Assembly: GCF_003340495.1 (NCBI RefSeq)
Contig: NZ_QASA01000001.1
Span: 2,976,001-3,040,000 of the forward strand
Length of the DNA stretch: 64,000 nucleotides
Origin: Adhaeribacter pallidiroseus
GTDB taxonomy: Bacteria; Bacteroidota; Bacteroidia; Cytophagales; Hymenobacteraceae
Reading direction: 5' to 3'
Part shown: one piece after another, positions 54,991-62,009 of the stretch
Numbering within the stretch: position 1 is the first letter of the stretch
How the letters are laid out: each line of letters begins with the position of its first letter
The notes under the pieces: generated by a model
Seen by the model: only the letters and a program-made list of their open reading frames with translations
Databases searched by the model: none
What the model was told of the DNA's origin: nothing
Position numbers and translations under genes: made by a program

Positions 54991-57072
54991 ATGCAGACAC
55001 ATTTAAACAAACCCATTTTTTTAAATTTTACGACCCGGTACGCCGTACCCCGACTGGTTTTTACTAATCGTTATAGCCAAAAATCCCGGCTAACAGCTGT
55101 GGCTATTCTTAGCTTGTACTGGCTGTTGGCCGCTTTTGGGCCCGCTTACGCCCAGGAAGAATTAGTAGGACTTACCTCCAACGGCGGCCCCCAGGGAAAA
55201 GGCACTTTATTTTCAATGAAAACTACCGGCGCTAATTACTCCATTATTAAAGGCTTTGCCGACTGGGGTAAAAATCCGGAAGGAAGTTTAACCAAAGGCA
55301 GCGATGGTAATTTTTACGGCCTTACTTCGCTCGGCGGCACGTATAATTACGGAACCGTTTTTAAAATTACGCCGTCCGGGGCCGTTACGGTTTTGCATCA
55401 ATTTGATCTTAATACCACCGGTGGGTATCCCAAGGGCAGTTTAGTAAAGGGTGCCGATGGCAACCTTTACGGCATGACCAGTTCGGGTAGCCCCAATAGT
55501 TACGGCAACATTTTTAAAATTTCGCCGGCGGGTGTTTTCACCATCATCAAAAACTTTAACAGTCCTACTGACGGTGGCCGGCCCAACGGTCATTTGATCA
55601 TTGCGAAAGATGGCAATTTTTACGGTACCACTTACAGCGGCGGAGCGTATGGCTACGGCACTATTTTTAAGTTAACCCCGGGCGGTACTTTCACCGTGTT
55701 AAAATCTTTTGATTACACCAACGATGGTGGTAATTCTTACGGGAGCCTGGTACAAGGAAAAGACGATAGTTTTTACGGCATGACGTACTGGGGTGGAACC
55801 TACAAATTCGGCACTATCTATAAAATAACGCCGGCCGGTAAATTTACGGTGCTACGGCATTTACAGACCGAAGACGGCATTTATCCGCAAGGCAACAACT
55901 TAGTATCGGCCACCGATGGCCATTTGTATGGCACGCTGCCCCGCGGAGGAGCTAATTACGTAGGCACAATTTTTAAAATTACCACCAGCGGTTCTTTTAA
56001 CGTCATTCATCATTTAGAGAATAAACAAGGCAGCAACCCTATTGGTAGTTTAGTACAAGGCCCTGATGGCGCTTTATACGGTATGGGCTATTACGGCGGC
56101 GCTAACGGCGATGGCTCGGTTTTTAAAATTACAACCAAAGGCACGCTTTCTGTTTTATATTCTTTTACCAAAATCAATGACGGCGCCCATCCGAACGGCA
56201 CTTTGTTTCGCCACAACGACGGTAATTTTTACGGGATGACCTTTGAAGGTGGTAAAAACTTGTTCGGTACTATCTTTAAAATAACCCCCACTGGCACCTT
56301 TACGGTACTCAACAGTTTGAACGGCGGCTCTACGGGCAACGCACCCCAGGAAAGTGTTATTCTGGCGAAAGATGGAGCATACTATGGTACTACCCGCGAA
56401 GGAGGCATCTATAATCAAGGGACCATTTTTAAAGTATGCGGCGGCATTTACACGGTACTCCGGTCATTAAATAAAAACACCGACGGCAGTGAACCGCTGG
56501 GCAGCCTGGTGCAGGGTACCGATGGTAATTTTTACGGAACAACCTCTCAAGGGGGTGCCACCGGAGCAGGTACTATTTTTAAAATTACTCCCGGCGGATC
56601 CTATACCGTATTACGTCATTTAAAAACCGCCGAGGGCAGCAATCCGCAAGGTGGTTTAACCCAAGGCAAAGACGGTAACTTTTACGGCCTGGCTCAATAT
56701 GGCGGAGCTCAGAACGGCGGCACTATTTTTAAAATAACACCTGCTGGTGCATTTACTATTCTGTGGAATTTAGAAGCCACCGCCGATGGTCGCTACCCGG
56801 CCGGTAATTTAGTGCAAGGCGCCGATGGCCACTTTTATGGCACCACCAGTACCAGCGGCATGTATAATTACGGCACTATTTTTAAAATTTCGCCCACCGG
56901 AGCCTTTAAAGTATTACGCCATTTGCAGATTATTGCCGACGGAAGTTCCCCGCTGGGTAGCCTTACTTTGGGCAAAGACGGTAACCTCTACGGTACCACT
57001 AGTTCCGGGGCAGCAGTTCTTACGACGGCGCCATTTTTAAAATTACACCAACCGGCAGTTATTCCGTATTAA
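54991..57072 (+). CDS. GloVer-repeat surface protein, N-terminal part (frameshifted)
   Basis: 693 codons. Signal region to about residue 55, ending AYAQ. Then twelve tandem repeats of about 50 residues, each containing GTIFKITPxG and DGNFYGTT-like strings: the GloVer repeat of choice-of-anchor proteins, probably a beta-propeller or fibre. At the G-run 57007-57010 the frame changes and ends in a short false tail (…FLKLHQPAVIPY). Adding one G would restore GGSSSYDGAIFKITPTG and join this frame to the next CDS, giving one protein of about 1192 residues. Real mutation, phase variation or assembly error are all possible. Confidence 0.75.
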   Translation: MQTHLNKPIFLNFTTRYAVPRLVFTNRYSQKSRLTAVAILSLYWLLAAFGPAYAQEELVGLTSNGGPQGKGTLFSMKTTGANYSIIKGFADWGKNPEGSLTKGSDGNFYGLTSLGGTYNYGTVFKITPSGAVTVLHQFDLNTTGGYPKGSLVKGADGNLYGMTSSGSPNSYGNIFKISPAGVFTIIKNFNSPTDGGRPNGHLIIAKDGNFYGTTYSGGAYGYGTIFKLTPGGTFTVLKSFDYTNDGGNSYGSLVQGKDDSFYGMTYWGGTYKFGTIYKITPAGKFTVLRHLQTEDGIYPQGNNLVSATDGHLYGTLPRGGANYVGTIFKITTSGSFNVIHHLENKQGSNPIGSLVQGPDGALYGMGYYGGANGDGSVFKITTKGTLSVLYSFTKINDGAHPNGTLFRHNDGNFYGMTFEGGKNLFGTIFKITPTGTFTVLNSLNGGSTGNAPQESVILAKDGAYYGTTREGGIYNQGTIFKVCGGIYTVLRSLNKNTDGSEPLGSLVQGTDGNFYGTTSQGGATGAGTIFKITPGGSYTVLRHLKTAEGSNPQGGLTQGKDGNFYGLAQYGGAQNGGTIFKITPAGAFTILWNLEATADGRYPAGNLVQGADGHFYGTTSTSGMYNYGTIFKISPTGAFKVLRHLQIIADGSSPLGSLTLGKDGNLYGTTSSGAAVLTTAPFLKLHQPAVIPY

Positions 57073-57149: not shown

Positions 57150-58568
57150 ATGACCAGCAAGGGTGGTAAAAACAGAGCAGGTACTTTGTTCCGGATTACC
57201 ACGGGAGGTAAGTTTAGTGTGCTGCGTCATTTTAATTTAATTACGGATGGAGGTACGCCGCTGGGCAGCTTAATCGTGCAAAAGGCTAATCCGTTGGTGG
57301 CTAATCCTCAAAACCTGACTACCGTTGAAGATAATCCGAAAACATTAACTCTAACGGGCTCCGGCGGCGAGCCACTTACCTTTACCATAAAAACACAACC
57401 TAAAAACGGTACCATAACCGGTTCCGGAGCTACCCGCACCTACAAGCCTAAAGCTAATTTTACCGGCAAAGATACCTTTACGTTTACCGTAAGTGTTGGC
57501 TGCCTCGTTTCGGCACCCGCTACGGTAACCGTTACTGTTAGTCCGGTAAACGATGCCCCGGTTTTAGCCACCATCAGCAATAAAACCGTAGTGCTGGGTT
57601 CCACTGTAAATTTCACGGCTACGGCTACCGATCCGGATGCCGGCCAGACCAAAACCTTTTCATTAGTAGGCGCTCCGGCGGGGGCCCGCATTAATGCTAC
57701 CACGGGTGTTTTCAACTGGAAGCCGGCGGCTGTTGGCAGTACTGCTTTTAAAATTAAAGTTACCGATAACGGCTCGCCGGCTTTGTCCGATGAACAAGCG
57801 CTTATGGTTACTGTTACGAATACCGAGAATATGGTGCGCTTAAATACCGGTGGAGCCGCCGTAGCCACCTCGCTCGGCCATTTTGCGGCCGATGCTTATT
57901 TCAGCGGGGTTACGGGTATCTCAACCACTACTTCCGCCATTGAGGGTACTACTGACGATGCCTTGTACCAGGACAATCGGCGGGCTGCTACGAACGGCGG
58001 CAGCTTTAGCTATCATATTCCGGTTACCAACGGCAACTACCAGGTAAAGCTGCACTTTGCCGAAACCTTCTATACCACGGCTGGTTTGCGTAAATTTAAC
58101 GTCAGCGGCGAAGGTACCGCCTGGTTAACAAACTACGACATTGTAGCGGTGGCCGGTAGTTCTAAAAAAGCCGTGATCGCCAGTAAAAACATTCTGGTAA
58201 CGGATGGAGAATTAAACCTGATTTTTGTATCGGTGGTCGATAAAGCTTGTGTATCGGCGATTGAAGTAGTGCCCGCGGGAGCTGCCGATGCTTTTGCCAC
58301 CGGCTCCAAAGTTGAAACTAAAGCTTTGATAGTTAGCAAAATATACCCGAATCCGGCGGTAAATTCGTTGCACCTAACTTTGAGCGAATCAGCGGCGGTA
58401 TTTACCGGCACCATCACCGACAGCAAAGGCTACACCGTTAAAACCTTGCACGAACCGGTGCAAGCCAGTCAGGTAGAAGTAAATGTGGAATCGTTGCAGC
58501 CCGGCTTATATCAACTTCACGTCCAAACTTCGGCTGGCATCCAGATTTACCGATTTGTAAAACGCTAA
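57150..58568 (+). CDS. GloVer-repeat surface protein, C-terminal part: Ig-like, malectin and T9SS domains
   Basis: 472 residues from the first ATG after the frameshift; the natural frame extends left to about 57010 and holds repeats 13 and 14. Then follow an Ig-like domain (about 50-130, ending VTVSPVNDAP), a He_PIG-type Ig domain (about 135-220), a malectin domain (about 225-375, VRLNTGGAAVATSLGHFAAD and KLHFAETFY) and a T9SS type A tail (ISKIYPNPAVNSLHLTL ... YRFVKR). Without the N-terminal part it has no signal peptide and should not be exported. Malectin modules bind carbohydrate, so the intact protein was likely a secreted glycan-binding or adhesive protein. Confidence 0.75.
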   Translation: MTSKGGKNRAGTLFRITTGGKFSVLRHFNLITDGGTPLGSLIVQKANPLVANPQNLTTVEDNPKTLTLTGSGGEPLTFTIKTQPKNGTITGSGATRTYKPKANFTGKDTFTFTVSVGCLVSAPATVTVTVSPVNDAPVLATISNKTVVLGSTVNFTATATDPDAGQTKTFSLVGAPAGARINATTGVFNWKPAAVGSTAFKIKVTDNGSPALSDEQALMVTVTNTENMVRLNTGGAAVATSLGHFAADAYFSGVTGISTTTSAIEGTTDDALYQDNRRAATNGGSFSYHIPVTNGNYQVKLHFAETFYTTAGLRKFNVSGEGTAWLTNYDIVAVAGSSKKAVIASKNILVTDGELNLIFVSVVDKACVSAIEVVPAGAADAFATGSKVETKALIVSKIYPNPAVNSLHLTLSESAAVFTGTITDSKGYTVKTLHEPVQASQVEVNVESLQPGLYQLHVQTSAGIQIYRFVKR

Positions 58569-58727: not shown

Positions 58728-58915
58728 AGCCAGGTTAGGGTTACTAGTCAAGGCAATTAAGCACGAGCTATAAAGCCTCCTGTAATTAGTAGTGTTCAGC
58801 CAGCCTACTAAAATTTTAAAAAAGAAACAACCGCTACGATTGTTTAAGTAACCCCGTTACCTAAATTCTTAAAAAGCGATGTATGATTACGCATCCGGGC
58901 TAATCTCTATGGCAA

Positions 58916-59355: not shown

Positions 59356-60624
59356 CTATGACTTATTCGGGAAGTAAGCCCGGAAGGTAGAGCCTTCTCC
59401 GGGGGTGCTGCCCACTTCTATCTTACCTTGGTTGAAATCCATAATTCTTTTCACGATAAATAAACCTACTCCGCTGCCCTCCACATCGTCGCGTAACCGT
59501 TTAAATAAAGAAAATATTTTTTTTTCGTGTTTAGGCAAGTCTATACCTATACCGTTGTCGGTTACCGTTACTACCACATAATTATTAACGGCAGCACTGG
59601 TTACGCTAACCACGGGCAATCGATCCGGCGACCGGTACTTAATCGCGTTACTTACCAAATTGTACAGCACGCTTTTTAAATTTTTACGCGAAAACCAAAC
59701 TTTAGGGTTGGCGGTAAAATCGGTATGAACTACTGCGCCGGATTGTTGGATGACTTCGGCCAGACTAGCAGTGACTTCATCTAAAATAGTGGCGAAAGAA
59801 ATAAACTCGTGCTCTTCTTCCGTGTCTTTTTGAATTTTACTTACCTGAGTTAAGTCGTTGATGGTGCGGTGCATCTGGTGGATAGAATACTCCAACTTGC
59901 CAAAAACCTGGGAAATATCAGGATCTACACCCGGTAATTCTTCTTTTAAAACAGTTATTAAACCTTCGGCGTTGATAACCGGCGATTTTAAATCGTGCGA
60001 GGCGCAATAAACAAAATTATCCAGGTCGGCATTAATGCGTATTAACTCCCCGTTTTTAACAATCAGGTTTTTTTCCACTTTTTTTCTAAATTCTACTTCT
60101 TTTTCTAATTCCCGGTTAACCCGAATTAATTGAGCAGTGCGTTGGTTTACGCGGTTTTCCAATTCATCATTTGCCTGCCGCAACGCCGCCTCGGCTTTAT
60201 GTCTTTCTTTCATTTGCAACAGCAACTCCGAGTTGGCCATGGCCAGCGTATCGGCACTAGGAATAAGCAGTATTTTGGGCAATGACCGCAGTAAAATAAA
60301 CGCTGTGCCTAAAGACAAAAGTCCGGTTACTACCTTTACTAAACTAGCTATATCATAAACCGGGTCCCAAACCGTCCAGATATCCAGTAAATGCGTAGTG
60401 CCACAAGCCAGTATAAACATCCCGAATAAAATGAATACGTGCTTTTGCACTAAATATTTCCGCTTTTGAGCCAGGTAAAAAAGCATAAACGGGATTGAAA
60501 AATAAGCTATTCCCGTTAAAGCATCGCCCACCACGGTTGGCCACAATATAGCTTTATTCCATTGGTAACAATGGCCATGCGGCATAAAAGTACTGGTATC
60601 AACCAAATTGAATAATTGTTTCAT
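59356..60624 (-). CDS. Sensor histidine kinase with ethylene-receptor-like membrane domain
   Basis: 422 residues. Three membrane helices (about 28-50, 60-83, 92-115) match the ethylene-binding domain of plant ETR1. Asp34, Tyr41, Ile44, Pro45, Ile71, Cys74 and His78 correspond to ETR1 D25, Y32, I35, P36, I62, C65 and H69, all at offset +9; Cys and His are the copper ligands (FILACGTTHL). A coiled coil follows (about 130-200), without a GAF domain. Next come a HisKA H-box with His210 (FVYCASHDLKSPV) and a HATPase_c domain with YNLVSNAIKY, DNGIGI and GSGVGLFIV. Relatives occur in cyanobacteria and other bacteria; ethylene binding here is inference. Confidence 0.88.
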   Translation of the reverse strand: MKQLFNLVDTSTFMPHGHCYQWNKAILWPTVVGDALTGIAYFSIPFMLFYLAQKRKYLVQKHVFILFGMFILACGTTHLLDIWTVWDPVYDIASLVKVVTGLLSLGTAFILLRSLPKILLIPSADTLAMANSELLLQMKERHKAEAALRQANDELENRVNQRTAQLIRVNRELEKEVEFRKKVEKNLIVKNGELIRINADLDNFVYCASHDLKSPVINAEGLITVLKEELPGVDPDISQVFGKLEYSIHQMHRTINDLTQVSKIQKDTEEEHEFISFATILDEVTASLAEVIQQSGAVVHTDFTANPKVWFSRKNLKSVLYNLVSNAIKYRSPDRLPVVSVTSAAVNNYVVVTVTDNGIGIDLPKHEKKIFSLFKRLRDDVEGSGVGLFIVKRIMDFNQGKIEVGSTPGEGSTFRAYFPNKS

Positions 60625-60973: not shown

Positions 60974-61007
60974 AAAAGCACTCCCGTACTAACCCAGAAG
61001 TGCTTTT
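60974..61007 (-). terminator. Terminator after the cysteine-synthase-family gene
   Basis: Stem AAAAGCACT / AGTGCTTTT with a 16-nt loop; on the minus strand it continues into a run of T. It lies 22 bp after the stop codon. Confidence 0.75.
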
Positions 61008-61028: not shown

Positions 61029-62009
61029 CTAATCTAAGTATCCTTGCTCGCGCATCCATTCGTCATTATATATTTTAGCTAAGTATCGAGTGCCGTGGTC
61101 CGGTAAAATCACGACTAAAATATCCGCTTCGGTTAAGTTTTCGCGGGCGTATTCCAAAGCGCCATACACCGCCGAACCGCACGACCAACCCACGAACAAA
61201 CCTTCTTCTTTGGCTAAACGCCGGGTCATTACGGCACCGTCTTTATCGGTAACTTTTATAAACTGGTCGATTAAATTAAAATCAACGTTTTTAGGTAAAA
61301 TATCTTCGCCAATTCCTTCGGTTTTGTAGGGATAAATTTCGTTTTCGTCGAAGATACCGGTTTCCTTGTATTTTTTAAAAACAGAGCCGTACGTATCAAT
61401 ACCAATTGATTTTACTGCCGGATTTTGCTCTTTTAAGTATTTGGCAATGCCGCAAATAGTACCCCCGGTACCTACACCGGTAGCCAAACACGTTATTTTA
61501 CCATTGGTTTGTTCCCAGATCTCCGGTCCGGTCGTTTCGTAATGCGCCGCCGTGTTTGATAAATTATCGTATTGGTTTGGGTAAAAAGAATTAGGAATTT
61601 CGCGGTTTAAACGCTTGGCTACCGAGTAGTACGAACGCTCGTCTTCGGGGGCTACGTTGGTGGGACAAACAATAACCTCGGCGCCAACGGCCCGTAAAAT
61701 ATCCATTTTTTCTTTGCTCTGCTTATCGGTGAGCGTAAAAATGCATTTATAACCCCGACCGATAGCGGCCAAAGCCAATCCCATACCGGTATTGCCCGAG
61801 GTACCTTCAATAATGGTTCCGCCGGGTTGCAGCAGACCAGCTTTTTCCGCATCCTCAATCATTTTAAGAGCCATGCGGTCTTTAACCGAATTACCCGGAT
61901 TAAAATATTCTACTTTAGCCAGCACGGTAGCCTGAATACCTGCGGTTACTTTATTTAGCTTTACTAAGGGTGTCCGGCCAATTGCTTCAGAAATATGATT
62001 TAAATACAT
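61029..62009 (-). CDS. PLP-dependent cysteine synthase / cystathionine beta-synthase family enzyme
   Basis: 326 residues, fold-type II PLP enzyme. The PLP lysine is in NPGNSVKDRMA, the substrate loop is EGTSGNTGMGLA, and the phosphate-binding Gly loop is TGVGTGGTICG. The segment APEDERSYYSVAKRLN and the SFYPNQYDNLSN motif are closer to the catalytic core of cystathionine beta-synthase than to CysK, but no CBS regulatory domain follows. It makes either cysteine from O-acetylserine or cystathionine from serine and homocysteine; I cannot decide. Cytoplasmic. Confidence 0.85.
   Translation of the reverse strand: MYLNHISEAIGRTPLVKLNKVTAGIQATVLAKVEYFNPGNSVKDRMALKMIEDAEKAGLLQPGGTIIEGTSGNTGMGLALAAIGRGYKCIFTLTDKQSKEKMDILRAVGAEVIVCPTNVAPEDERSYYSVAKRLNREIPNSFYPNQYDNLSNTAAHYETTGPEIWEQTNGKITCLATGVGTGGTICGIAKYLKEQNPAVKSIGIDTYGSVFKKYKETGIFDENEIYPYKTEGIGEDILPKNVDFNLIDQFIKVTDKDGAVMTRRLAKEEGLFVGWSCGSAVYGALEYARENLTEADILVVILPDHGTRYLAKIYNDEWMREQGYLD

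Follow-up and report, generated by a model that had tools for sequence, protein, structure and literature searches.

A probable Cu(I)-dependent ethylene-sensing kinase and an adjacent single-receiver regulator in Adhaeribacter pallidiroseus

Results

The kinase gene and its neighbors

The window, i.e., the whole 64,000-nucleotide stretch of Adhaeribacter pallidiroseus DNA that was analyzed (contig NZ_QASA01000001.1, positions 2,976,001 to 3,040,000), contains a gene for a 422-aa ethylene-receptor-like sensor histidine kinase, whose open reading frame was checked and found at the position and on the minus strand given in the original prediction (Table 1). The kinase gene and a gene for a single-receiver response regulator lie downstream of a cysteine-synthase-like gene, and the gap from the stop codon of the kinase to the start of the receiver gene is 11 bases. 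The receiver retains D11, D12, D70, S103, and K124. A pattern scan found 4 terminator-like hairpins, a weak signal compared to the 2.7 found in shuffled sequences; two of them border the genes at this locus.

Table 1. Features of the kinase locus, with positions in the window
Feature	Position	Strand	Basis
Cysteine-synthase-like PALP-family gene, fixed neighbor	61029..62009	-	Pfam PALP E 9.9e-74; 200/204 family genomes
Terminator-like hairpin between cysteine-synthase-like gene and kinase	60974..61007	-	Pattern scan, weak
Ethylene-receptor-like sensor histidine kinase	59356..60624	-	Pfam ETR1_N, HisKA, HATPase_c; full-length AlphaFold2 pLDDT 89.2
Extracytoplasmic P15-H16-G17-H18-C19-x2-W22 motif, residues 15-22	60559..60582	-	Conservation before TM1
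TM1, residues 24-54, with D34, Y41, I44, P45	60463..60555	-	AlphaFold2 helix; ETR1 columns
TM2, residues 61-86, with I71 and predicted Cu(I) ligands C74, H78	60367..60444	-	AlphaFold2 helix; ETR1 columns
TM3, residues 90-119, with K97 (ETR1 K91)	60268..60357	-	AlphaFold2 helix; ETR1 column
Signaling helix, residues 124-200, continuous with first HisKA helix	60025..60255	-	AlphaFold2 helix 124-229
HisKA domain, residues 202-265, phospho-acceptor H210 at 59995-59997	59830..60021	-	Pfam; H-box alignment
HATPase_c catalytic domain, residues 314-420	59365..59685	-	Pfam; N, G1, F, G2 boxes
Single-receiver response regulator, 142 aa	58916..59344	-	Pfam Response_reg E 2e-13; phosphorylation residues kept
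Terminator-like hairpin past response regulator	58825..58845	-	Pattern scan, weak

When the sensor region was scored against profiles, a check that the original prediction had proposed, the Pfam model ETR1_N (PF25487) matched residues 26-119 with 108.3 bits (E 2.4e-31; curated cut-off 27 bits). This was the single ETR1_N match in the genome, and none of 14 control genomes had one. HisKA scored 27.7 bits against a cut-off of 26.9, and HATPase_c scored 78.5 bits. As had been predicted for GAF, the Pfam scan detected neither a GAF nor a PAS domain in the 422-aa protein. The motifs SH210DLK, N326, DNGIGI, FSLFKRL, and GSGVGL are all present; thus, the kinase is intact in its H, N, G1, F, and G2 boxes, as had been anticipated, and with a receiver carrying the acceptor Asp the parts of a two-component system are complete in the window. 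In the full-length AlphaFold2 model (39 sequences, pLDDT 89.2, pTM 0.56), one unbroken helix, residues 124-229, runs from just past TM3 through H210, and no separate domain is therefore predicted between sensor and kinase.

Elsewhere in the window, two open reading frames on the plus strand, 54991-57072 and 57150-58568, the latter with malectin, Ig-like, and Por secretion-tail domains, correspond to a single open reading frame in a close relative (G397; L247, 4397-7972). The window copy looks broken between 57072 and 57150, either naturally or by sequencing error.

The sensor domain keeps the ethylene-binding residues of ETR1

The seven ethylene-binding residues listed in the original prediction were compared column by column with plant ETR1. 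D34, Y41, I44, P45, I71, C74, and H78 align to ETR1 D25, Y32, I35, P36, I62, C65, and H69, confirming the constant offset of +9 that had been claimed, and K97 of TM3 falls in the column of ETR1 K91 at an offset of +6. One study reports that ETR1 needs these seven residues to bind ethylene and gives a predicted contact between D25 and K91 (PMC11819568).

The AlphaFold2 model of the sensor, built with 75 aligned sequences, has a mean pLDDT of 91.8 and is composed of three helices (Table 1), in agreement with the three-helix membrane domain initially proposed. On a helical wheel, C74 and H78 stand at i and i+4 of one helix and, with I71, fall inside a 60-degree arc of TM2, while D34, Y41, I44, and P45 span 100 degrees of TM1; this clustering is suggestive only, since the arc tests were not significant (p 0.087 and 0.085). 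Conservation was one-sided on TM1, TM2, and TM3 (p 0.003, 0.006, and 0.0004, respectively). In a set of 11 family relatives that carry the copper pair, the window included, the sensor was better conserved than the kinase (0.615 versus 0.538; difference 0.007 to 0.149, an interval obtained by bootstrap over columns from sequence pairs that are not independent). Within the structure collections searched, a sequence search for a solved relative of the sensor gave one chance match (E 1.6), and a fold search gave no match at E ≤0.001. Altogether, the ETR1_N match and the seven residues in register make it well supported that the window kinase belongs to the ethylene-receptor sensor family, as first suggested.

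An extracytoplasmic cysteine motif accompanies the predicted copper site

Immediately before TM1 lies the motif H16-G17-H18-C19-x2-W22, which was absent from the original description. P15, H16, G17, C19, and W22 are invariant in the 75 aligned sequences, a set that includes loci found via a pattern containing this motif. The plant-type N-terminal CxC (Cys 4 and 6) is not found in the window protein, which has one Cys, C19, before TM1; residues 4 and 6 of ETR1 form inter-chain disulfides (PMC6586836), whereas the window has HGHCxxW.

A motif-blind sample was drawn with a model that begins after the N-terminal motif. Of its 142 distinct copies, 114 carry both C74 and H78, and the full set of seven residues is found in 81. 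Cys at the motif position was present in 106 of 111 copies with the copper pair; over 137 rows, 106 had both Cys and pair, 21 had neither, and 5 and 5 had one only. This count left out 5 of the 142 rows with too little upstream sequence, the loci from the motif-holding pattern, and three plasmid loci. On a tree, 4 supported independent contrasts were found, and over 200 pairings an average of 2.0 went the same way and 0.0 the opposite way, with one opposite contrast in a few single pairings; because there were just 4 such pairs, the association was not significant. We regard the extracytoplasmic Cys tracking the copper site as a lead and not a result.

By their sequence before TM1, the 114 copper-pair copies comprise 83 with HGxCxx(W/F), 20 with RWxCGxW, 5 with another Cys, and 6 with none. 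An Azospirillum brasilense copy (L148), 525 residues long when counted from the first Met, has HGVCLFW and begins with the amino acids that the published AzoEtr1 primer encodes (PMC11819568). The motif HGxCYLW, in five spellings, was not found in the text of the literature searched. As a guess, HGxCxxW may be a copper-loading site of bacterial ethylene receptors. In two Bacteroidota genomes (L005 and L007), ETR1_N lies at least 500 residues into a 1567-aa open frame that is without the N-terminal Cys motif.

Distribution of the ETR1_N domain

ETR1_N exceeded the Pfam cut-off in 21 of 395 Bacteroidota genomes, in 34 of 204 genomes of the same bacterial family, in 15 of 395 of the same class, in 36 of 117 cyanobacterial genomes (the phylum of a Calothrix locus), in 23 of 299 Pseudomonadota (that of a Pseudomonas locus), and in 6 of 96 genomes in the phylum of a Verrucomicrobiia locus, each count including its center genome, positive by choice. 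These counts accord with the earlier statement that such domains are known in cyanobacteria and some other bacteria. Within the genus, 4 of 8 genomes, one of them (G400) just 78% complete, are without the domain; the function is therefore dispensable. The sampled loci are not exhaustive, consisting of best matches and 20 hand-chosen weaker or second copies; ten loci without a match to the sensor profile (L059-L065, L164, L218, and L236), whose Pfam scores lie between about 20 and 32 bits and of which three exceed the Pfam cut-off, were left out of later counts.

Bacterial ethylene receptors were known before, and the window gene adds another of that kind. Putative receptors have been noted in other bacterial phyla (PMC11819568), and the main text of that paper does not contain the word stem Bacteroid-. 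Among the papers listed, none on such a receptor in Bacteroidota was found by title or abstract opening, in a search whose scope mostly excluded subscription papers, which fits the view that a role in this group is little studied.

Variable presence of the kinase at a syntenic locus where the receiver is mostly retained

The cysteine-synthase-like gene occurs in 200 of 204 family genomes at E 1e-100 or better. The ETR1_N kinase adjoins it in all 4 copy-bearing genomes of the genus, in 2/2 of group g172, in 15/15 of the sister genus g173, and in 3/6 of Pontibacter, where two further copies (G538 and G550) are located elsewhere and a third (G564) was left out of the position check. Seven copies occur in g2 and g175; none of the 5 with both positions listed is adjacent to the cysteine-synthase-like gene. 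The family's 27 kinase copies formed one supported group in a quick tree.

We then compared 70 loci around the cysteine-synthase-like gene, 30 from a gene search that included the window's own and 40 chosen by hand; the set excludes the three Pontibacter genomes whose kinase occupies this place. The kinase was present in 15 (truncated in G403), the receiver stood without a kinase in 52, neither gene was found in 2, and in one, from Pontibacter (L311), the receiver was preceded by a broken remnant of the kinase's ATP-binding end. Thus, the receiver is independent of this sensor and must have other inputs. Its five phosphorylation residues (Asp, Asp, Asp, Ser/Thr, and Lys) were conserved at every one of the 53 loci lacking an intact kinase, as they were beside intact kinases (6/6), those with His changed to Arg (5/5), and the one with Asn (1/1). 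Across all phyla, an adjacent receiver was found for just 31 of the 105 ETR1_N kinases for which sufficient downstream DNA was available, so adjacency is common and not the rule; 14 had an internal receiver. The original prediction of a CheY-like partner therefore requires qualification: the receiver adjoins the kinase in the window, but its presence at 52 loci without a kinase makes a dedicated pairing uncertain.

The remnant shows that the kinase was lost in Pontibacter. For the other receiver-only relatives, the kinase may never have been present or may have been gained repeatedly at the same place, and both stand as alternatives to loss. Such varied states of one syntenic place were not seen described within the literature searched (titles and abstract openings).

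Altered orthologues in a sister genus and in Adhaeribacter soli

In the sister genus g173, the orthologue is kept in 15 of 16 genomes, and these copies form one clade nested among the family's 27 rows, which are themselves a clade (quick tree with SH-aLRT 100 and 99). All 15 sensors have Gly or Ala for C74, Ala or Ser for P45, and Ala or Gly for I71, and 13 have Glu for D34; H78 is retained throughout, and none has a Cys before TM1. The phospho-acceptor is Arg in 15/15, including one row (L241) scored as Ala, taken as misaligned, in which direct alignment gave Arg; the N, G1, F, and G2 boxes are retained. Among these copies, the kinase is more conserved than the sensor (0.717 versus 0.540; bootstrap interval over columns excluding zero, again from sequence pairs that are not independent). 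So well kept a kinase part argues against simple decay.

In A. soli (G402; L035/L090), the sensor is intact and the phospho-acceptor His is Asn, and a relative of A. soli (G403) has an open frame of 218 residues only. Outside g173 and A. soli, His was present in 80 of 80 scored rows, with H-box scoring covering 97 of 234 rows. In DivL-type pseudo-kinases, the H-box His is replaced and the ATP-binding boxes are retained; the g173 orthologue resembles them at these sites and differs in its sensor. No description of g173 losing both its input and its output chemistry was seen within the literature searched.

Discussion

The nearest proven counterpart of the window kinase is AzoEtr1 of Azospirillum, the first 130 residues of which, with the same seven residues, bind ethylene, and which has a receiver gene just downstream (PMC11819568). 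Like AzoEtr1/AzoRR-etr1 of A. brasilense, the window pair combines the seven residues and the Lys, the HGxC motif, a histidine kinase, and a downstream single-receiver regulator, with 44-46% identity to the listed Azospirillum rows in the sensor region; unlike the window kinase, AzoEtr1 carries a PAS domain that separates its sensor from its kinase (PMC11819568). The resemblance to plant ETR1 lies in the three-helix copper/ethylene domain, with copper predicted in the window, and in the seven residues in register; ETR1 has a GAF domain, whereas the window protein has no GAF and a complete kinase instead.

SynEtr1 (Slr1212) of Synechocystis is larger than the window protein, which consists of sensor, helix, and kinase only. 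SynEtr1 has an ethylene-binding sensor and signals by phosphotransfer to a response regulator, and it also senses light (PMC11819568); the parts for such a circuit are present in the sequences of the window proteins. Ethylene inhibits the kinase activity of ETR1, and indirect evidence suggests that SynEtr1 behaves likewise (PMC11819568). Cu(I) is the cofactor of the receptor family (PMC6586836).

Because the AzoEtr1 sensor with the same seven residues binds ethylene, Cu(I)-dependent ethylene sensing is the best reading of the window kinase. Considering its family membership, residues, gene order, and conservation, together with structural models and analogy to characterized receptors, we think it probable that the window pair is a Cu(I)-dependent ethylene sensor kinase in a minimal bacterial two-component switch, beside its single-receiver regulator. 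The three helices would hold Cu(I) between C74 and H78 of TM2, with D34 and Y41 of TM1 nearby, and ethylene or a very similar small olefin would coordinate the copper. Binding may be relayed via a D34-K97 contact and TM3 into the helix that reaches H210, altering autophosphorylation. If ETR1 and SynEtr1 are a guide, ethylene would more likely lower than raise kinase activity. Phosphate would then pass to the receiver encoded next door, which, having no output domain, must act through protein contacts. The A. soli orthologue, with Asn for the phospho-acceptor in a protein whose sensor is intact, counts against an ethylene switch. Two partial matches to ACC deaminase (TIGR01274) in the genome, at 41 bits each, lie far below the cut-off of 392, and 6 of 14 control genomes also match below it; hence, this profile gives no independent sign of ethylene-related biology in the genome.

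That Cu(I) itself is the signal, entering through periplasmic ligands H16, H18, and C19 with ethylene irrelevant, seems unlikely. The co-occurrence of the extracytoplasmic Cys with the copper pair and the role of Cu(I) as the family cofactor (PMC6586836) would suit such a copper sensor, but the former is not significant on the tree, D34, Y41, I44, P45, and I71, relevant to ethylene binding in ETR1, are also kept, as is the complete set of seven in over half of the motif-blind copies, and Pfam found no copper-handling domain among five locus proteins scanned. Somewhat less likely still is that the same copper site senses another small ligand (a different alkene, CO, or similar) or redox or membrane state. 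Ethylene and similar copper ligands cannot be separated by sequence, and Leu replaces the first Ile of the site in 4 of the 11 family relatives with the copper pair; the window copy, however, retains this Ile, and ethylene binding has been shown for the homologues AzoEtr1 and SynEtr1 (PMC11819568).

We give very little weight to the possibility of a decaying locus in which the window copy is a functionally idle leftover. The many loci with a receiver and no kinase, the two with neither gene, the Pontibacter remnant, the truncated copy in G403, and the phospho-acceptor His lost in A. soli and in every sister-genus copy would all be expected of decay, but every motif is intact in the window, and the sensor is the better-conserved part among the 11 copper-type relatives. 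Ethylene sensing through Cu(I) thus remains our preferred reading. More tentatively, and with some doubt, an ancestral ethylene/Cu(I) switch may feed a receiver that is kept with or without it; the g173 orthologue, minus copper ligand, Pro, Cys motif, and phospho-His, would then be a conserved pseudo-receptor that continues to control this receiver in a different way. This change loosely parallels the situation in plants, where receptor signaling is for the most part independent of His kinase activity (PMC11819568).

If ethylene is bound, gas-hormone sensing would extend to Bacteroidota in about the simplest architecture, i.e., sensor, helix, and kinase, and the protein would be a convenient system for tracing the path from bound ethylene to the kinase. 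Natural negative controls are offered by the syntenic orthologues that lack the copper ligand and the phospho-His. With the switch kept, missing, or rebuilt at the same genomic place in close relatives, the family therefore provides a good natural test set.
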